DNA of 64,000 nt from Kaistella montana (GTDB taxonomy: Bacteria > Bacteroidota > Bacteroidia > Flavobacteriales > Weeksellaceae), in the NCBI RefSeq assembly GCF_024436175.1, contig NZ_JANFQP010000001.1, positions 248,001 to 312,000 of the forward strand, written 5' to 3'. Positions within the stretch are counted from its first letter, which is position 1; every line of letters begins with the position of its first letter. The notes under the pieces were generated by a model. It was not told where the DNA came from, made no database searches, and was given only the letters and a program-made list of their open reading frames with translations. The position numbers and the translations under genes were made by a program. This document shows positions 49,881-58,119 of the stretch, in pieces.

Positions 49881-49905
49881 GACCAAACCTTTTTTATTAT
49901 AATTA

Positions 49906-49928
49906 AGTCCGCTTCGGCGGATTTTTTT
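49906..49928 (+). terminator. Rho-independent terminator with UUCG tetraloop
   Basis: TCCGC-TTCG-GCGGA hairpin followed by seven T, 25 nt after the OmpA-family gene. The C(UUCG)G loop is exceptionally stable. Confidence 0.9.
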
Positions 49929-49941
49929 ATTTTAAATTCAC

Positions 49942-49949
49942 TATTTTTG
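49942..49949 (+). promoter_or_regulatory. Putative -7 box (TATTTTTG) for the polyprenyl-phospho-arabinose operon
   Basis: Exact consensus 18 nt before ATG 49968. It is just downstream of the preceding terminator, so the four genes 49968-53523 should form their own transcript. Confidence 0.45.
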
Positions 49950-49967
49950 GAATTGATTTTTACATTG

Positions 49968-50852
49968 ATGACAAAATATTTAAAACTGCTGCGTGTAGAA
50001 CAATGGGTGAAGAACCTTTTTGTTTTTGTGCCCCTTTTCTTTTCCGGAAATATCACCAATTTTGATCTGTTGATTAAAAGTTTTTTTGCGTTTTTAGTAT
50101 TTTCTTTCGCAGCGAGTTCAGTTTATATTCTCAACGATTATTCCGACATTGAGTCTGATAAAATTCACCCTGAAAAAAGCAAAAGACCACTCGCGAGCGG
50201 AGCTATTTCCAAAACTTCAGCAATTATTGTTTTTATAGGTTTAATCATACTAAGTACTGTTTTAATAATCTTTGGTGAAGCTTATTTTCACCATAATTTC
50301 TGGAAGTTTGCATCTATCATTATTTTTTATTTTTTAATGAATGTTTTGTACACTTTTAAGCTGAAACATGTTGCTATTATTGATGTGTGTATCATCGCTA
50401 TTGGTTTTGTGTTAAGGGTTTTGGCAGGAGGTTACGCCACCGGAATTTTTATTTCTCAGTGGGCGATTCTCCTTACGTTTGTCCTTGCTTTAGTATTGGC
50501 GATCGGGAAAAGACGTGGAGAATTGATCAATGCGCAAATTTCTGGGAAAACAAGAAAGGCTTTAGACGGTTACAATGTGCAGTTTGCCGATATAGCACTT
50601 TCCATCAGTTGTACGCTCGCTATTGTGTGTTACCTTATGTTTACGCTTTCTCCGGAGGTTCAGCAGCGTTTTCACCCAAGAGTTTTTTATACGGTGATTT
50701 TTGTGGTGTTTGCTTTTTTGCGCTATTTGCAGCAAACTTTGGTGTACAACAAAACCGAATCGCCGACCAAGATTATTTATAAAGACCGATACATTCAGAT
50801 TACCTTGATACTGTGGCTTGCGGCCTTTTTACTTCAAATTTATTTCAAATAA
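49968..50852 (+). CDS. UbiA-type polyprenyl-phosphate phosphoribosyltransferase (DPPR synthase-like)
   Basis: Membrane enzyme predicted to transfer 5-phosphoribose from PRPP to polyprenyl phosphate, as Rv3806c does in mycobacteria. 294 residues from ATG 49968 (upstream TTG rejected), about eight helices. The UbiA Asp-rich motif is in YILNDYSDIESDKIHPEKSK, preceded by LRVEQWVKNLFVFVPLF and followed by KRPLASGAIS, with second-site motifs LKHVAIIDVCIIAIGFVLR and LAIGKRRGEL. These segments track the mycobacterial DPPR synthase closely, unlike quinone-type UbiA. The stop overlaps the next ATG by 1 nt (TAATG). Confidence 0.9.
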   Translation: MTKYLKLLRVEQWVKNLFVFVPLFFSGNITNFDLLIKSFFAFLVFSFAASSVYILNDYSDIESDKIHPEKSKRPLASGAISKTSAIIVFIGLIILSTVLIIFGEAYFHHNFWKFASIIIFYFLMNVLYTFKLKHVAIIDVCIIAIGFVLRVLAGGYATGIFISQWAILLTFVLALVLAIGKRRGELINAQISGKTRKALDGYNVQFADIALSISCTLAIVCYLMFTLSPEVQQRFHPRVFYTVIFVVFAFLRYLQQTLVYNKTESPTKIIYKDRYIQITLILWLAAFLLQIYFK

Positions 50853-52168
50853 TGAAACCAAATTTTACACAAAAAGTTACGAATTGGGGCAATTTTTTGG
50901 TCGTGGAAAAAGAAATGAAATCTGAAGATTCTATCCAAAAAATTAAAGAATTCGTACAAAATAATAACGAAGTTATCGCTCGCGGAAACGGCCGATGTTA
51001 TGGTGATGCCTCGCTTTCTGAACATATATTATCTACCAAAAGACTCAATAAATTTATCAGTTTTGATCGGTTGAACGGTGTGATTGAATGTGAATCCGGA
51101 GTGTTGCTTTCGGAGGTGCTCGAAGTTTGTGTTCCTCAAGGTTATTTTCTTTATGTGACGCCCGGAACTAAATTTGTATCCGTTGGAGGTGCTATCGCTT
51201 CGGATGTTCATGGCAAAAATCATCATTTGGAAGGTTGCTTTTCCGAATATGTGCAGGAGTTTTCTTTATTAAATGAAAAAAGTGAAGTCATTACTTGCTC
51301 GCGAACTGAAAATTCTGAAAAATTCTGGGCAACCATTGGCGGAATGGGACTTACAGGAATTATTATTTCCGCCAAATTTAAATTGAAAAATATTGAAACT
51401 GCATATATTCGTCAAGAATCCATCAAAGCCGATAACTTAGATGAAATCTTTAAACTATTCGAAGAAAGCGGTGCGTGGACTTATAGCGTAGCTTGGATTG
51501 ACTGTCTGCAAAAAGGGAAAAAATTAGGAAAAAGTATTTTGATGAGAGGCGAACATGCCTTCAGACATGAATTATCCAAAAATCTTCAGGAAAATCCTTT
51601 AAGATTAAAGTCAAAATTAATGCCCACAATACCTTTTTATCTTCCAAATTTTGTTCTGAATAAATGGACGGTAAAGTTATTCAATTGGTTGTATTTCATT
51701 AAACAACAGAAAAAAGAGACAAAGAATTATGTGGATTATGAAACTTTTTTCTACCCTTTGGATGTGATGAATGACTGGAATAAAATCTATGGAAAAGAAG
51801 GTTTTATTCAATATCAAATGGTGATTCCCAAAGAAAATGGGAAAGAAGGAATGAAAAAAATCCTGGAAACCATCGCCAAAAGCGGAAACGGTTCTTTCCT
51901 CGCTGTGTTGAAACTTTTCGGGAAAAACAATCCAGAAGCTTACAACTCTTTCCCAATGGAAGGTTATACCTTGGCTTTGGATTTTAAAGTGAACAAAAAT
52001 CTCAAAAATTTGGTGGAAAAACTGGATGTGATTGTTGAAGAATTCGGTGGAAGAATTTATTTAACCAAAGACAGCATGAGCAAATCCAGCTTGACCAATT
52101 ATTTGCAAAATGTGCAGAATCCTAAATTTGTTTCGTTGCAGCACAAAAGAATCATTAATAATAACTGA
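50852..52168 (+). CDS. dprE1: DprE1-like FAD-dependent polyprenylphosphoryl-ribose 2'-oxidase
   Basis: Flavoprotein predicted to oxidise the 2'-OH of polyprenyl-phospho-ribose. 438 residues from ATG 50852; a GTG start 13 codons upstream is rejected. The FAD PCMH domain has VIARGNGRCYGDASLSEHI and KFVSVGGAIASDVHGKNHH (the mycobacterial protein has the same HGKNHH, whose His carries the flavin), then FWATIGGMGLTGIIISAKF. The C-terminal substrate domain has EGFIQYQMVIPKENGKE, VLKLFGKNNPEAYNSFPMEG and GGRIYLTKDS. Ala375 occupies the position of mycobacterial Cys387 (GYTLALDF against GWNICVDF). Gene order supports the call. Confidence 0.88.
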   Translation: MKPNFTQKVTNWGNFLVVEKEMKSEDSIQKIKEFVQNNNEVIARGNGRCYGDASLSEHILSTKRLNKFISFDRLNGVIECESGVLLSEVLEVCVPQGYFLYVTPGTKFVSVGGAIASDVHGKNHHLEGCFSEYVQEFSLLNEKSEVITCSRTENSEKFWATIGGMGLTGIIISAKFKLKNIETAYIRQESIKADNLDEIFKLFEESGAWTYSVAWIDCLQKGKKLGKSILMRGEHAFRHELSKNLQENPLRLKSKLMPTIPFYLPNFVLNKWTVKLFNWLYFIKQQKKETKNYVDYETFFYPLDVMNDWNKIYGKEGFIQYQMVIPKENGKEGMKKILETIAKSGNGSFLAVLKLFGKNNPEAYNSFPMEGYTLALDFKVNKNLKNLVEKLDVIVEEFGGRIYLTKDSMSKSSLTNYLQNVQNPKFVSLQHKRIINNN

Positions 52169-52191
52169 AATATTTCTACTAATTCTAATTT

Positions 52192-52917
52192 ATGATCATA
52201 CTCGGAAGCAATTCAGAAGTTGCGCAAGCCTTTGTAGAAAAGGTTTTAGAAGCTGGTGGAAAATATTCAACGATATTTTTGGTTACCTCTAATCGGGAAA
52301 CTACTGAAAAATTTGCCCGTCATCTCGATGTGAAATACCTTCAAGGTTCCGAAATCATTGAGTTCGATTTGTTGAAGGAAAATGAATACACCAAGTTGGA
52401 AGCGATTTCTTCTGATTTGCTGTTTTGCGCAACGGGTTTTCTGGGTGAAGGAACCGAAGAAGGATTGTATGACCCTAAAAACACTGCAAATATTGTCGAT
52501 ATTAATTACGCAAAACTGATTCCGTTGCTCAATTTTTTTGCTCAGAAAATGGAAAGACAACGTTCCGGAACAATGATCGTTTTGTCTTCGGTAGCGGGAG
52601 ATCGTGGAAGACAGAGCAATTTCATTTACGGAAGTGCAAAAGCGGGTTTAACGGCTTATTTGAGCGGATTGAGGAATTATATGTTCAACCGAAAAGTTCA
52701 CGTAATGACAATAAAACCAGGATTTATGGATACGAAAATGACCGAAGGTTTGCCACTGAATCCAAAATTGACTGCGACACCAAAACAAGCCGCAGAAGCC
52801 ATTTACAGAGCATTTAAAAAGAAAAAAAATGTTGCGTATGTTCTGCCGATTTGGGGATTGATTATGTTGATTATCAGAAGTATTCCGGAATTTATTTTTA
52901 AAAAACTAAAACTCTAA
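52192..52917 (+). CDS. dprE2: DprE2-like short-chain dehydrogenase (2'-keto reductase)
   Basis: NAD(P)H-dependent reductase predicted to finish the ribose-to-arabinose epimerisation begun by DprE1. 241 residues: Rossmann start MIILGSNSEVAQAF, then S133 in VLSSVAGDRGRQSNFIYGS and the YxxxK pair Tyr146/Lys150. The NFIYGSAKAGLTAYLSGL segment and the C-terminal IIRSIPEFIFKKLKL match mycobacterial DprE2 (RHIPRSIFRKL at its end), which argues for this subgroup over generic SDR. It is 23 bp downstream of dprE1 and 18 bp upstream of the phosphatase gene. Confidence 0.87.
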   Translation: MIILGSNSEVAQAFVEKVLEAGGKYSTIFLVTSNRETTEKFARHLDVKYLQGSEIIEFDLLKENEYTKLEAISSDLLFCATGFLGEGTEEGLYDPKNTANIVDINYAKLIPLLNFFAQKMERQRSGTMIVLSSVAGDRGRQSNFIYGSAKAGLTAYLSGLRNYMFNRKVHVMTIKPGFMDTKMTEGLPLNPKLTATPKQAAEAIYRAFKKKKNVAYVLPIWGLIMLIIRSIPEFIFKKLKL

Positions 52918-52935
52918 GAAACAGGATTTCGATTG

Positions 52936-53523
52936 ATGAAAAAATTATATTGCTTCGATTTTGACGGAACTTTAACCTACAAAGACACGATGTTTTTGTA
53001 CTTGAAATTTTATGACGCTACGAAATTTAGGATTCAGTTTGTCAAGCATATTCCACTGTTTGTTTTGCTTAAATTAAAGCTTGCGGATGCCGAAAAAGTG
53101 AAGAAAAGTTTCATTGCATCCATTTTAAAAGGAGAAAGTAAAAGCAAAATCGAAAAGAAAGCAGAACTTTTTTTTAAAGAGTTTTATCCGCAAATTTTCA
53201 GAGAGAATGCTTTGGAATTCATCAAAAACATTGACTACGAAAATACCGAATCCTATATCGTTTCCGCTTCTTTGGATATTTGGGTAGCGCCTTTTGCTAA
53301 TGAGTTTAAGATGAAGCTTTTGTCCACACAGGCCGAATTTAAAAATGATAAATTCACTGGAAATTTCATCGGTAAAAATTGTAATGGAGCTGAAAAAGTA
53401 AACCGAATTAAAGAAGCTGTTTCCGACAGAAAATTCGATAAAACCATCGCGTTTGGTGATACTTCGGGCGATCGGGAAATGTTGGCTTGGGCAAATGAAA
53501 GCCATTTTGAATTTTTTCACTAA
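52936..53523 (+). CDS. HAD-IB family phosphatase
   Basis: 195-residue HAD phosphatase (SerB-like subgroup IB). Motif I CFDFDGTLTYKD with nucleophile Asp8 and Asp10, motif II SASLD, motif III Lys around NCNGAEKVNRIKE and motif IV AFGDTSGDREML. A helical cap lies between motifs I and II. ATG 52936 is used; the TTG one codon upstream is rejected. Its place as last gene of the operon suggests it removes the 5-phosphate from polyprenyl-phospho-ribose-5-phosphate, a step done in mycobacteria by an unrelated PAP2-type protein; this is inference. Confidence 0.85.
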   Translation: MKKLYCFDFDGTLTYKDTMFLYLKFYDATKFRIQFVKHIPLFVLLKLKLADAEKVKKSFIASILKGESKSKIEKKAELFFKEFYPQIFRENALEFIKNIDYENTESYIVSASLDIWVAPFANEFKMKLLSTQAEFKNDKFTGNFIGKNCNGAEKVNRIKEAVSDRKFDKTIAFGDTSGDREMLAWANESHFEFFH

Positions 53524-53562: not shown

Positions 53563-54735
53563 ATGGACAAAATATATCTGGACAATGCTGCTACAACACC
53601 GCTTTCAGAAGAGGTAATTGATGCAATGGTGTCGGTAATGAAAGTTACTTATGGCAATCCTTCATCCACCCACAGTTTCGGGCAAGAAGCTAAAATCCTT
53701 ATCGAAAAAGCTAGGAGAGAAGTTGCCGATTATTTGCATGTTACTCCGGCTGAAATCATCTTCACTTCATGCGGAACGGAGTCCAATAATATGATCATCA
53801 AATCTTGCGTGGATCATATTGGTGTGGAGCGAATCATTACTTCGCCATTGGAACACAAATGTGTTGCAGAAACAGTTCTGGAGATGAAAAACAGGAGAGG
53901 CGTTGAGGTGGTTTACCTTCGACCAGACCAAAAAGGGGATTTGGATCTCAATAAACTTGAAGAATTATTAAAAAACTCCGAAAAGAAAACTTTGGTAAGT
54001 TTGATGCATGCCAATAACGAAATCGGAAATCTTCTCGACATCAAAAAAGTAGCGGAAATTTGCAAAGAAAACAATGCTCTTTTCCATTCAGATACGGTAC
54101 AATCAATGGCGCACATGGATTTGGATTTTTCCGATATTCAGGTAGATTTTGCGAGCTGCAGTGCTCATAAATTTCATGGTCCCAAAGGAAGCGGATTTGC
54201 TTTTATCAGAAAATCTTCAGGATTAAAAGGGATAATCACCGGTGGTCCGCAAGAAAGATCATTGAGAGCAGGAACTGAAAACGTTTGTGGAATCGTGGGT
54301 TTAGGAAAAGCGTTGGAACTTTCGTTGAAAAATATGAATGATTATGCTTCTCACATCAAAGGAATCAAAAATTATACAATCGAAAAACTTTCGAATGAAA
54401 TAGAAGGAGTGAAATTCAACGGTAGAAGTGCTGAAGAAGGAAGTTTATACACTGTTTTAAGCGTTCTTTTGCCATTCAAAGATCCAATGATTGGTTTGAA
54501 ACTAGACATGAAAGGAATCGCAATTTCTCAGGGAAGTGCCTGTTCATCGGGCGCGTCTAAACCATCAATGGTCATGATGATGATTTTGGATGAAGAAGAA
54601 ATGGAACAATCAACGCCTCTAAGAATTTCATTCAGCCACCTCACTACTAAAAAAGATATTGATGTTTTAGTGGATGCTTTAAAAGAAATCGCTTCAGCTT
54701 CTAAGATAGAAAAAACAAATATTGAACATAGATAG
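53563..54735 (+). CDS. Cysteine desulfurase (IscS/NifS family)
   Basis: PLP enzyme releasing sulfur from cysteine for Fe-S clusters and tRNA thiolation. The 390-residue protein has YLDNAATTPLSEEVIDAM, GTESNNMIIKS, the Lys-PLP motif CSAHKFHGPKGSGFAF (Lys203) and the catalytic Cys327 in SQGSACSSGASKPS. The long flexible Cys loop is of the group I (IscS-like) type. No isc or suf genes flank it. It follows the HAD phosphatase by 39 bp, so it may be read from the same transcript, but functional linkage is doubtful. Confidence 0.92.
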   Translation: MDKIYLDNAATTPLSEEVIDAMVSVMKVTYGNPSSTHSFGQEAKILIEKARREVADYLHVTPAEIIFTSCGTESNNMIIKSCVDHIGVERIITSPLEHKCVAETVLEMKNRRGVEVVYLRPDQKGDLDLNKLEELLKNSEKKTLVSLMHANNEIGNLLDIKKVAEICKENNALFHSDTVQSMAHMDLDFSDIQVDFASCSAHKFHGPKGSGFAFIRKSSGLKGIITGGPQERSLRAGTENVCGIVGLGKALELSLKNMNDYASHIKGIKNYTIEKLSNEIEGVKFNGRSAEEGSLYTVLSVLLPFKDPMIGLKLDMKGIAISQGSACSSGASKPSMVMMMILDEEEMEQSTPLRISFSHLTTKKDIDVLVDALKEIASASKIEKTNIEHR

Positions 54736-54809: not shown

Positions 54810-55127
54810 ATGGCATTAGAAATAACAGATCAGTCATTCCAAGAAATGGTTTTGAATTCAGATAAACCTGTATTAGTTGACTTTTGGGCAGTATGGTGTG
54901 GACCATGTAGAATGTTGGGACCAATTGTAGAAGAAATTGCAACTGATTTCGAAGGAAAAGCGGTTGTAGGAAAAGTAGATGTTGACAACAATCAGCAGGT
55001 TTCTGTGGATTACGGCATCAGAAATATTCCTACCGTTTTAATCTTCAAAAACGGGGAAGTAGTAGATAAAATTGTAGGAGTTGCTTCCAAAGAAGTGATT
55101 GCTGAGAAATTATCTGCACATTTATAG
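54810..55127 (+). CDS. trxA: Thioredoxin
   Basis: Cytoplasmic disulfide reductase, 105 residues. Active site FWAVWCGPCRM with C30 and C33, buried Asp in VLVDFWA, cis-Pro in IRNIPTVLIFKNGEVV. No signal peptide. This is the standard small thioredoxin, unlike the exported TlpA-like protein at 26.4 kb. It is monocistronic with a possible -7 box. Thioredoxin reductase is not in the window. Confidence 0.95.
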   Translation: MALEITDQSFQEMVLNSDKPVLVDFWAVWCGPCRMLGPIVEEIATDFEGKAVVGKVDVDNNQQVSVDYGIRNIPTVLIFKNGEVVDKIVGVASKEVIAEKLSAHL

Positions 55128-55190
55128 AAAAAATAATCCCATAAGAATCAATGCTTTCCGAAAAAGAAAGCATTTTTTTTGCAAAAACAT

Positions 55191-55899: not shown

Positions 55900-58119
55900 T
55901 CAATTGACCCATATTTCATCGATAGCTACTAATGGCTTTTTATTAGGATGGCTTTTCCATTCTGGCAATTGATCTAAAGGAGTAAATGAGACTTTAATAT
56001 ACTGTATGACATCATCCACGATGAAAGTAGTTTTTTGAGTGTTTATCGAATAGTTTTCTTCAGTATTTAGCATCTGTGGAGAGAATACCTGATAATTAAT
56101 CCCATCTTTTGAAACGGATACTTGTACATTATTGGGTAGGAATATCCAGTGTCGCTGATCTTCTAAAAATGACATCGATATATCATGAACTCTTTTAGGG
56201 GAATCCATTTTTAAGGTTATGGTATTGGAAAGATTAAATAGAAGCCAGTTGTAGCTGAAATCTGGGAATCCATACATTCCATCTGTTAGTGTTTTTTCTT
56301 TTTTTCCTGGAAAATCAGAAATCCATGGATGCTCAAAATGAACCTCTGATCCAATCGCTGAATTGTCTAAGACTCCGGTCTTTATTATTTTTTTCCATTC
56401 TGTTTCGTATGTTTTAAGGGAATAGCCGCTTTCGGCTAGTTCTGTGATTCCCACCTTTTTTGCAGTGCTAATGAAAGTTTTTACCCTTTTGGGGATCGTT
56501 TTATTTAAGATCCATTTCCCATTTTGATTTTGGACATAGATCCCATTTTTATCACGACCGTAGAATCGCGCTTGTTGCAGATAGGCATAATCAAAGGCTA
56601 ACCTAAGTTTTTGTATCCGGTGGATGATCTGCCTGTCTCCTGATGTTTTTTCTGCGTCGTCAAAGAGGCTGCTCATCTCATCCATAATTTCGGGAGTTAA
56701 ATAAGATTGGTATTCACTTACAGGATTTCCATAAATATCCAGATTCCTTCCGCTTTCTTTTAAATAAAACTTCATTTTCTGAAGATATTCCTTAATGCGT
56801 GGTGCAGCTTTTTGATAATATCCCGCTAGGAAATCATCAAGCAATTGATCGGTATTTTCACTGCTATTCCATAGTTTTTTGGCTAATAAATAGGTTTTAA
56901 TCTCATTTTGGTGTACGTAATGATTACCGCCTAGTTGGGCAAAGACTCCATCTACATTCATCGTTTTATAGTATTCTATATTTTCTCCAATATTTAATAC
57001 ATCAGGAAACGGTGCTACATAATTGGTAAATTGGGTATAATAATCCCAAATAAATACATTGGGCGTTTTCTGTAACCAGCCCTTGAGGTTGTCGACAAAA
57101 AATGCAGCAGATTTTTCTTTTGCAACCGGATCATTTCGAAAAAGGTCTATATTACTTAAAAAGATGATTACATTTTCTCGAGGTCTTGTTTGTAAGGGCG
57201 GTCTGCTTGTAGAACCGTAAGCGAGAGTTGTGAATTTTTTTTCTGGATATCTTTCTGATATTTTATTGATAAATCGCATAAGTGGACCTTGAGGACCTCC
57301 TTCTGCTTCATTAATGGGTCTGCATAGATCACATTCACAATATCCAATATCATCGTTGGGACTTATGGACCAGTACTTTGCCGTTGGATGTTCTTTAAAA
57401 AGTTTTTCTAACGAAACAATGGTCTCTTCAAATACTTTTTCATTGGATAAACAAAGTTGCTCTGGTCTTCTTTTTCCTTGAAAAAATGCAAAATACTCGG
57501 GATGTGCCTTAAAATTTTCTGGGGACACTAATCGGTTATAGCTATGTCCCCAAAGTCCCCATAAGTCTTCGAGATAGTGTAATTTATGCCAATCCATATA
57601 CTCTTGATCATTGATGGCGGTAGAGTGAATTTCTCTATAATTGAATGAAGGGCTTTCGTTGATTTGTAAGGGGAGTTCTATATTAATCTCTTTTAAAGAT
57701 GGGCATACAGCAGGCTCGTTGGGTGCCCATTTTTTACATTGTAAATAGTTTTCTATAAAATGATATACTGCGTAAAGGACGCCCTTATTTGGATTTCCAA
57801 TCAATAGAATATCCTTGCCCTCATTCTTGATTTCAAAGGCATCTTGTTTTGAGGTGAGGTCTTGCATCTCCTTTTCACGGATGATGAGGTAATCATGATG
57901 AGGAGTCTTGTGATTCTCAATGGGAAGGTTTATTCCGGTTACTTCCTGAAAATAGTGAGAGATTATTTGGGCAGCTTTTATTTCTGTTGTTCCAGCCTTT
58001 TCAGAAATGAGTATGGCGTACGAGGAATTTCCTGATTTTGTCAGGCATATCTCCCTCTTTTGTGCATGATGAATGCTTGCAATCATAAGAAAAAATAGGG
58101 TAATACAGGTTTCTTTCAT
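55900..58119 (-). CDS. DUF4838 domain-containing exported protein, probable glycan-active
   Basis: 739 residues, signal peptide MKETCITLFFLMIASIHHAQ. Residues about 40-130 resemble the alpha-glucuronidase N-terminal (GH67N-like) domain (AAQIISHYFQEVTGINLPIE, KGVLYAVYHFIENYLQCKKW). The central DUF4838 barrel has SPSFNYREIHSTAINDQEY, WSISPNDDIGYCECDLCRPI with a possible Cys cluster, and FIWDYYTQFTNYVAPFP. The last about 130 residues look like a beta-sandwich carbohydrate-binding (F5/8-like) module. It is probably a periplasmic glycoside-acting protein; no activity is established. It stands alone, with no SusC/D or sulfatase partner, between two non-coding stretches, suggesting acquisition or a decayed locus. 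Confidence 0.85.
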   Translation of the reverse strand: MKETCITLFFLMIASIHHAQKREICLTKSGNSSYAILISEKAGTTEIKAAQIISHYFQEVTGINLPIENHKTPHHDYLIIREKEMQDLTSKQDAFEIKNEGKDILLIGNPNKGVLYAVYHFIENYLQCKKWAPNEPAVCPSLKEINIELPLQINESPSFNYREIHSTAINDQEYMDWHKLHYLEDLWGLWGHSYNRLVSPENFKAHPEYFAFFQGKRRPEQLCLSNEKVFEETIVSLEKLFKEHPTAKYWSISPNDDIGYCECDLCRPINEAEGGPQGPLMRFINKISERYPEKKFTTLAYGSTSRPPLQTRPRENVIIFLSNIDLFRNDPVAKEKSAAFFVDNLKGWLQKTPNVFIWDYYTQFTNYVAPFPDVLNIGENIEYYKTMNVDGVFAQLGGNHYVHQNEIKTYLLAKKLWNSSENTDQLLDDFLAGYYQKAAPRIKEYLQKMKFYLKESGRNLDIYGNPVSEYQSYLTPEIMDEMSSLFDDAEKTSGDRQIIHRIQKLRLAFDYAYLQQARFYGRDKNGIYVQNQNGKWILNKTIPKRVKTFISTAKKVGITELAESGYSLKTYETEWKKIIKTGVLDNSAIGSEVHFEHPWISDFPGKKEKTLTDGMYGFPDFSYNWLLFNLSNTITLKMDSPKRVHDISMSFLEDQRHWIFLPNNVQVSVSKDGINYQVFSPQMLNTEENYSINTQKTTFIVDDVIQYIKVSFTPLDQLPEWKSHPNKKPLVAIDEIWVN

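Follow-up and report, generated by a model that had tools for sequence, protein, structure and literature searches.

The lipid-linked D-arabinose donor pathway of mycobacteria and corynebacteria (Rv3806c, Rv3807c, DprE1 and DprE2) is the target of antitubercular DprE1 inhibitors (PMC6128881). In Citrobacter youngae O1/O2, three-component pentofuranose systems consist of a PPPRS-type phosphoribosyltransferase with a HAD domain, a MATE flippase and a glycosyltransferase of family GT136; the paper on these systems regards Rv3807c as unrelated to the HAD-family phosphoribose phosphatases and reports DprE1/DprE2 homologues for glycans containing arabinofuranose (PMC11127046, in part). Rhizobial noeCHOP takes part in the arabinosylation of Nod factors, and similarity to M. 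tuberculosis suggests that the genes noeC, noeH and noeO may direct the formation of a D-arabinose precursor (passages of PMC2443382). Here we compare these systems with a four-gene operon from Kaistella montana. It occupies positions 49968-53523 of a 64,000-nucleotide (nt) stretch of contig NZ_JANFQP010000001.1 (positions 248,001 to 312,000, forward strand), referred to below as the window. From the encoded proteins we consider it very likely that the operon specifies a pathway to a polyprenyl-phospho-D-arabinofuranose donor.

The operon consists of four intact open reading frames (ORFs) on the + strand, each initiated by ATG and terminated by a stop codon in the ORF listing, in the order UbiA/DPPR-synthase-like, DprE1-like, DprE2-like and HAD-IB. 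The first-pass annotation, made from the letters of the window, had described them as tightly spaced, and they are: the first two overlap by 1 nt (TAATG), and the following gaps are 23 nt and 18 nt, the last becoming 15 nt if the HAD gene starts at the upstream TTG at 52933. The GC content of the operon (0.356) compares with 0.365 for the window. All four proteins retain motifs that catalysis is expected to require, as detailed below.

The first gene (49968-50852, + strand) encodes a polyprenyl-phosphate phosphoribosyltransferase-like protein of the UbiA superfamily (294 aa; Pfam UbiA PF01040, 5.4e-22), placed by Pfam, NCBIfam and PDB comparisons. It keeps the NDxxDxxxDxxHPxKxxRPxAxG motif, and its sole sequence matches in the PDB are the DPPR synthase entries 8j8j (6.1e-39) and 8j8k. 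The UbiA family, the NDxxDxxxD-type motif and a DPPRS as the closest solved relative together assign it to the DPPRS/PPPRS group. The second gene (50852-52168, + strand) encodes a DprE1-like FAD oxidase of 438 aa (Pfam FAD_binding_4 PF01565, 1.7e-18), recognised by NCBIfam model NF053785, PDB entry 4aut and alignment. Its nearest solved structures are DprE1 proteins (4aut, 1.4e-79), the best non-DprE1 FAD oxidase following at 6.5e-10, and it retains the HGKNHH and QYQ motifs, the tryptophan in YSVAWID and the lysine in GGRIYLTKD. The solved relatives, HGKNHH and the lysine of GGRxYxxKD place it among the DprE1 proteins; its membership in that group, proposed earlier, stands by sequence similarity to solved structures rather than by a tree.

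The third gene (52192-52917, + strand) encodes a DprE2-like short-chain dehydrogenase/reductase (SDR) of 241 aa with a YGSAK active site (Pfam adh_short PF00106, 4.9e-18), assigned from NCBIfam, the PDB and a tree. Its best PDB match is DprE2 (21gq_C, 1.8e-26), with the next SDR at 1.2e-9 among the 60 of 124 matches listed. Phylogeny, which the first-pass annotation had named as a test, favors the assignment: when 34 SDRs were placed in a tree, the protein from the operon joined 30 DprE1-linked SDRs with support of 100/100, apart from just three further SDRs, of which two are very similar to each other. Rhodococcus DprE2 falls inside the DprE1-linked group, on a long branch and with unsure placement. 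In the same tree the DprE2 of locus L131, from a metagenome-assembled genome (MAG) labelled Prevotellaceae, clusters with Weeksellaceae proteins; the DprE1 of this locus (L131:1077-2363) is 58% identical to that of the window, the gene order differs, and either transfer or mis-binning would account for the pair.

To place the operon among its relatives, we used a DprE1 presence threshold of E <= 1e-40 in samples of 296 phylum genomes and 197 genomes from the window's family, and mapped neighborhoods in two sets of loci. The named set is no census, being 80 of 585 confirmed stretches, with the DprE1 ORF mapped in 74; the phylum set comprises 57 stretches fetched for 64 genomes, with the DprE1 ORF mapped in 56. 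The seven loci without a mapped DprE1 ORF were excluded from the counts. DprE1 was present in 169 of the 197 family genomes and 64 of the 296 phylum genomes, and in 0 of the 20 genomes listed for another family of the same order (f2). Named relatives came from Chryseobacterium, Epilithonimonas, Halpernia, Kaistella, Chishuiella, Apibacter, Chitinophagaceae, Pseudomonas and Campylobacterota. Genes for UbiA, DprE1, DprE2 and a stand-alone HAD protein occur together, no more than four genes from DprE1, at 38/74 named and 9/56 phylum loci. Because the set recurs in this way, we do not attribute it to chance.

Several scores weigh against equating these proteins with the mycobacterial enzymes. The UbiA-type protein lies just under the equivalog cut-off for decaprenyl-phosphate phosphoribosyltransferase (NF008977, 230.8 versus 234 bits) and under that of NF008978 (205 versus 207). 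The DprE1-like protein reaches 398.6 bits with NF053785, under a cut-off of 500 that none of the 296 phylum and none of the 197 family genomes attains. With the DprE2 model NF053786 the SDR scores 152.4 bits, under the cut-off of 250; its top NCBI model is the unnamed SDR family NF005489 (246.9 bits versus a cut-off of 267). Since these scores fall short, we treat the three named pathway enzymes as relatives and not as NCBI equivalogs. The DprE1-like protein also differs within a stretch that reads WNICVDF in mycobacteria and YTLALDF in the window; the stretch contains C387 and N385 of the mycobacterial protein, and its cysteine, the covalent target of benzothiazinones, is alanine in the window protein. 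In addition, about 30 residues near the C-terminus are absent from the window protein and from that of the Chryseobacterium-type locus L044, whereas the 12 other rows of the 14-row alignment have most of them.

It is conceivable, given the altered WNICVDF stretch, the missing C-terminal residues and the scores under the cut-offs, that the oxidase/reductase pair is no ribose-to-arabinose epimerase here and that the pathway yields a ribose lipid or a different pentose modified at position 2. We regard this as quite improbable, in view of the retained HGKNHH and QYQ motifs, YSVAWID tryptophan and GGRIYLTKD lysine, and of the DprE2-type SDR found no more than four genes from DprE1 at 67/74 named and 41/56 phylum loci, the operon matching noeCHOP included. 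Conversion to D-arabinose remains our preferred reading of the pair.

The fourth gene (52936-53523, + strand) encodes a HAD-IB phosphatase of 195 aa, a predicted polyprenyl-phosphoribose 5-phosphatase, recognised by TIGR01490 (113.8 bits, above the cut-off of 98.3), by Pfam HAD PF12710 (1.7e-29) and through fusions elsewhere. It keeps the DFDGTLT and GDTSGD motifs and has no PDB match by sequence. At other loci the two activities appear to reside in one protein: the UbiA-type ORF reaches at least 400 aa at 13/74 named and 23/56 phylum loci, and 27 of these 36 long ORFs contain a strict DxDGT-type HAD motif within their first 70 residues, the other nine showing a variant by eye. The long ORF of L052, the only one tested, has an N-terminal HAD domain by Pfam and scores 649 bits with PRK08238 against a cut-off of 351. 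None of the 36 loci with a long UbiA-type ORF has a HAD gene of its own no more than four genes from DprE1. Conversely, all 38 stand-alone HAD proteins of the named set accompany an unfused UbiA, as do 9 of the 11 in the phylum set, the other two (L041 and L085) occurring without a labelled UbiA.

PAP2-like proteins lie near DprE1 at 5/74 named and 2/56 phylum loci, the one at L037 being PF02681. That stand-alone HAD, UbiA-fused HAD and PAP2-like proteins exchange across loci supports one shared reaction for them, in which the 5-phosphate is removed. The HAD-IB class with its catalytic DxD, and its encoding with or fusion to a phosphoribosyltransferase, match the HAD-family phosphoribose phosphatases, and we conclude that the operon protein is very likely one of them. 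The idea that a HAD enzyme replaces the mycobacterial PAP2-type phosphatase, put forward in the first-pass annotation, gains support from the fusions, the 0/36 count and the PAP2-like proteins elsewhere. A mycobacterial-type Rv3807c phosphatase was considered as well; there is none in the operon, and the HAD protein would account for the step. The role itself is not new, since the HAD domain of Citrobacter ORF15, acting as phosphoribose phosphatase with a UbiA-type partner, has been published (PMC11127046, in part). A cluster of proteins of about 570 aa is also encoded close to the HAD-UbiA/DprE1 operon, at 10 loci from Bacteroidota (L059:12139-13827 and nine others); its L059 member is of the GH57/branching-enzyme type by Pfam.

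Taken together, the four proteins suggest the following route. The UbiA-type enzyme would transfer ribose-5-phosphate from phosphoribosyl pyrophosphate (PRPP) to polyprenyl phosphate, and the HAD enzyme would take off the 5-phosphate. The DprE1-like oxidase would then form a 2-keto sugar, which the DprE2-like reductase would reduce from the opposite side to arabinose, yielding polyprenyl-phosphate-D-arabinofuranose, the lipid probably being undecaprenyl. Once flipped, this donor could be used beyond the inner membrane by a GT-C glycosyltransferase. The donor pathway proposed in the first-pass annotation is thus supported by the homology of all four proteins, the SDR tree and the HAD fusions. 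Its description of the operon as complete was too strong, because the operon lacks genes for a flippase and a glycosyltransferase, and its sense of novelty was overstated: the HAD-fused phosphoribosyltransferase, the DprE1/DprE2 homologues for arabinofuranose glycans and the general scheme all appear in passages of PMC11127046. The new leads are a transferase candidate and the family-wide conservation.

The statement that the window contains no arabinofuranosyltransferase holds for the surroundings of the operon, beside which none was seen, and only in part for the window, not every ORF of which was screened. The best candidate in the genome is unlinked: an ORF of 543 aa on the minus strand of contig 3 (131231-132862), which has ribosomal genes as neighbors and is the only PMT_2 match of the genome at E <= 0.01. 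Its structural model has a GT-C fold (predicted local distance difference test, pLDDT, 91.9), and the Foldseek matches at E <= 0.001, like the top VIA rows, are all GT-C structures. D38 and D39 (a DD pair), E140, R182 and R318 are invariant in 51 homologues, a family we call A2; set against published residue positions, their spacing resembles that of AftB D62, E172, R221 and R372. At all eight str-type loci viewed, which come from genera g1, g2 and g147, the window's own included, and were chosen from A2 hits, the A2 gene adjoins or lies within one gene of the S12/S7/EF-G genes. In a same-genus genome a second polytopic ORF of 488 aa adjoins the A2 gene (L213:8372-9838), and one genome of genus g2 carries two tandem copies of the A2 gene (L216:4833-8621). 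The A2 profile showed no relation to Rhodococcus AftA, and its match to the Pseudomonas GT-C-like protein was weak (4.9%).

In other lineages, A2 relatives lie at the donor operon itself. On a Campylobacteraceae MAG contig (L155), the UbiA ORF shares 4 nt, with mechanical starts, with the gene of an A2 member (197.6 bits, 28% identity), and the order is GT4, GT-C, UbiA, GtrA, acyltransferase-like, DprE1, DprE2, HAD. Chishuiella changwenlii encodes a distant relative (33.0 bits, E 2.7e-9, 94.9% profile probability) directly 3' of the HAD gene, ahead of GT4 and hexapeptide-transferase genes (Pfam) and a GT2-like gene (by eye). The same position is taken at 6/6 fetched loci of genus g159 (22.6-36.2 bits), which may or may not be the genus of Chishuiella; these six were chosen for an A2 hit near DprE1, and five more DprE1-positive g159 genomes have no A2 hit. 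Locus L203 of this genus extends to an EpsG-family gene. From the Chishuiella and g159 arrangements we conclude that the donor operon of the window's family can occupy a surface-polysaccharide cluster, and a surface polysaccharide is, in our view, the likely acceptor in the window's genome.

A2 hits also go along with DprE1. Within the window's family they occur in 88/169 DprE1-positive and 1/28 DprE1-negative genomes (P 4.9e-7 by genome, 0.013 by genus), the lone exception being G445, which is 73% complete. In the phylum sample DprE1 is present in 12 of 17 A2-positive genomes, compared with 64/296 overall; without the window's family, the figures are 7/12 and 57/289 (P 0.003). However, a control family, GtrA, shows a similar association with DprE1 (152/169 versus 11/28, P 1.2e-8), so shared ancestry may explain the pattern, and presence and absence can no longer serve as proof of a link between the A2 transferase and the donor. 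Other points tell against the link as well: oligosaccharyltransferases outscore AftB in the structural match of the contig-3 protein, the L155 protein has S and A in place of the DD pair, the kinship of the Chishuiella and g159 proteins to the contig-3 protein is distant, five A2-positive genomes of the phylum sample lack DprE1, and two DprE1-positive family genomes (G095 and G210) are among those without an A2 hit. The A2 transferase cannot be the sole user of the donor, since 81 of the 169 family genomes with DprE1 gave no A2 hit. We give about even chances to the proposal that the contig-3 protein uses the donor made by the operon.

Nearly as probable, to our mind, is that another GT-C protein, or several, is the real acceptor enzyme in the window's genome. 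In its favor are the 81 genomes without an A2 hit, the presence of A3, Apibacter and Algoriphagus GT-C-like proteins at the operon in other lineages, and the limitation of the genome's transferase screens to A1, PMT_2 and the Apibacter protein. Against it, the contig-3 gene is the sole PMT_2 match at E <= 0.01, and neither the A1 profile nor the Apibacter protein matched anything in the genome, in searches without a positive control. On the latter results, a family A1/A3 GT-C protein and the Apibacter GT-C protein were set aside as the genome's transferase, and profile comparison gave no sequence relation between A2 and A3. Some Chitinophagaceae and Cyclobacteriaceae carry the A1/A3 family next to the operon or within it, and in Thermoflavifilum its gene separates UbiA from DprE1; it is found no more than four genes from DprE1 at 5/56 phylum and 7/74 named loci. 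Three members tested have no Pfam match, and the model has a GT-C fold (pLDDT 83.7). Apibacter and Algoriphagus carry other polytopic proteins with acidic motifs between DprE1 and DprE2. From these gene maps we read what appears to be a stable set of donor genes combined with an exchangeable transferase.

A donor used for protein O-glycosylation, and not for a polysaccharide, is the other outcome to be weighed. Pseudomonas indica L163 has a GT-C-like protein with SDDAYITFRV beside UbiA, which we take to be TfpW-like, and the transferase gene of the window's genome adjoins ribosomal genes, outside a polysaccharide cluster. TfpW itself attaches alpha-1,5-linked D-arabinofuranose homopolymers to pilins (PMC11841053, in part). 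The neighbors of the Chishuiella and g159 GT-C genes are instead of polysaccharide type (GT4, hexapeptide transferase, EpsG-like), and we consider protein glycosylation unlikely.

For the flippase, GtrA was considered. It lies no more than four genes from DprE1 at 22/74 named and 7/56 phylum loci, and at none of the mapped Chryseobacterium-type loci. The single GtrA match of the window's genome (contig 4, beside an acyltransferase-like gene) is near neither the operon nor the transferase locus, and 0/14 g159 genomes, 12 of them DprE1-positive, have one. No flippase was identified in the window's genome, in which MATE genes were not searched genome-wide. We found no report of D-arabinose in a Weeksellaceae glycan, a weak negative with most subscription papers beyond reach; passages of PMC4052302 report none. 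Literature on the function of the operon was likewise not found, again a weak result, judged on titles, abstract openings and term counts.

Somewhat short of even odds, we propose a broader picture, in which most Weeksellaceae (Chryseobacterium, Kaistella, Epilithonimonas and kin) decorate an envelope glycan not yet described with D-arabinofuranose. Their conserved donor operon would serve a changing set of GT-C proteins, one of them (PMT_2/GT39-like, sugar unknown) at the S12/S7/EF-G genes and away from glycan clusters, and donor synthesis would be separate from acceptor choice, allowing diversification of the surface. To our knowledge, D-arabinose is rare on bacterial surfaces. If the operon works as predicted, most of a common Gram-negative family makes a D-arabinose lipid donor, with a DprE1 that has alanine in place of the cysteine of the mycobacterial motif, and the family carries an arabinosylated glycan yet to be found. 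The transferase candidate makes this model testable by a single gene deletion.

Signals around the operon are weak. A terminator-like stem-loop (49905-49924, + strand; a consensus match only) separates the operon from the ompA-like gene that precedes it, and a TATTTTTG box at 49942-49949 (+ strand), read from the sequence, resembles TAnnTTTG, the -7 box consensus of Bacteroidota. We call them weak because the window holds 7 terminator-like sites compared with 4.1 +/- 2.0 in shuffles and because none of the 11 sites from a sigma-70-type scan precedes the operon. The terminator scan found no site separating the HAD gene from a cysteine desulfurase homologue 39 nt downstream (53563-54735, + strand), which is possibly co-transcribed and outside the pathway; the first + strand site, at 55150-55174, lies past a thioredoxin-like gene (54810-55127, + strand). 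Both neighbors were named by eye from their ORFs. The operon transcript may therefore continue into the downstream genes, and a cysteine desulfurase homologue also lies downstream of the operon in all six other same-family loci of the set compared. Phage records gave no match to the operon DNA. Farther on, the minus strand of the window (55900-58119) carries an ORF of 739 aa that looks by eye like a secreted carbohydrate-active protein.

Compared with known systems, the operon resembles the mycobacterial and corynebacterial pathway in encoding homologues of the phosphoribosyltransferase, the oxidase and the reductase, each with its motifs retained. It differs in having a HAD phosphatase and not Rv3807c, in enzymes that score under the equivalog cut-offs, and in a DprE1 without the C-terminal stretch and the cysteine of the mycobacterial motif. 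No Emb/Aft gene was recognised next to the operon, a genome-wide search not having been made. In Rhodococcus ruber, DprE1, DprE2 and an annotated galactan arabinofuranosyltransferase stand in a row. The Ebo operon, with UbiA and other enzymes (passages of PMC5133447), was set aside as different in gene content.

Like the Citrobacter youngae system, the operon pairs a phosphoribosyltransferase with a HAD phosphoribose phosphatase. However, its HAD protein is a separate gene, its epimerase would be the DprE1/DprE2-like pair and not ORF13, it contains no MATE gene, and the candidate glycosyltransferase is encoded elsewhere in the genome. With donor genes only, and the transferase candidate on another contig, the operon is not a three-component pentofuranose system. 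Pseudomonas group IV pilin D-arabinosylation by TfpW is predicted to use the donor that we predict for the operon (PMC11127046, in part), and the DD motif of the GT-C-like protein of P. indica is a further likeness to that system. Unlike the operon, Pseudomonas loci L144 and L163 carry PAP2-like and GtrA genes, and the TfpW acceptor is pilin (passages of PMC11841053).

The rhizobial system resembles the operon in gene order. In Sinorhizobium (Ensifer) alkalisoli YIC4027, genes for UbiA, GtrA, a FAD oxidase, an SDR and a fifth protein lie beside acyl carrier protein and ketoacyl synthase genes, and the paper on this genome, which identifies nodEF-noeCHOP, suggests that the Nod factors are arabinosylated (PMC6689892, in part); we infer that the noe names match these individual genes. 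The order UbiA, FAD oxidase, SDR is that of the operon, and the FAD protein of the window is 40% identical to the one from S. alkalisoli. In contrast to the operon, noeCHOP holds GtrA, its acceptor is the Nod factor, and its fifth gene has no Pfam match. The rhizobial noeCHOP operon is thus an earlier Gram-negative precedent for the donor pathway that we propose here (PMC2443382 and PMC6689892).

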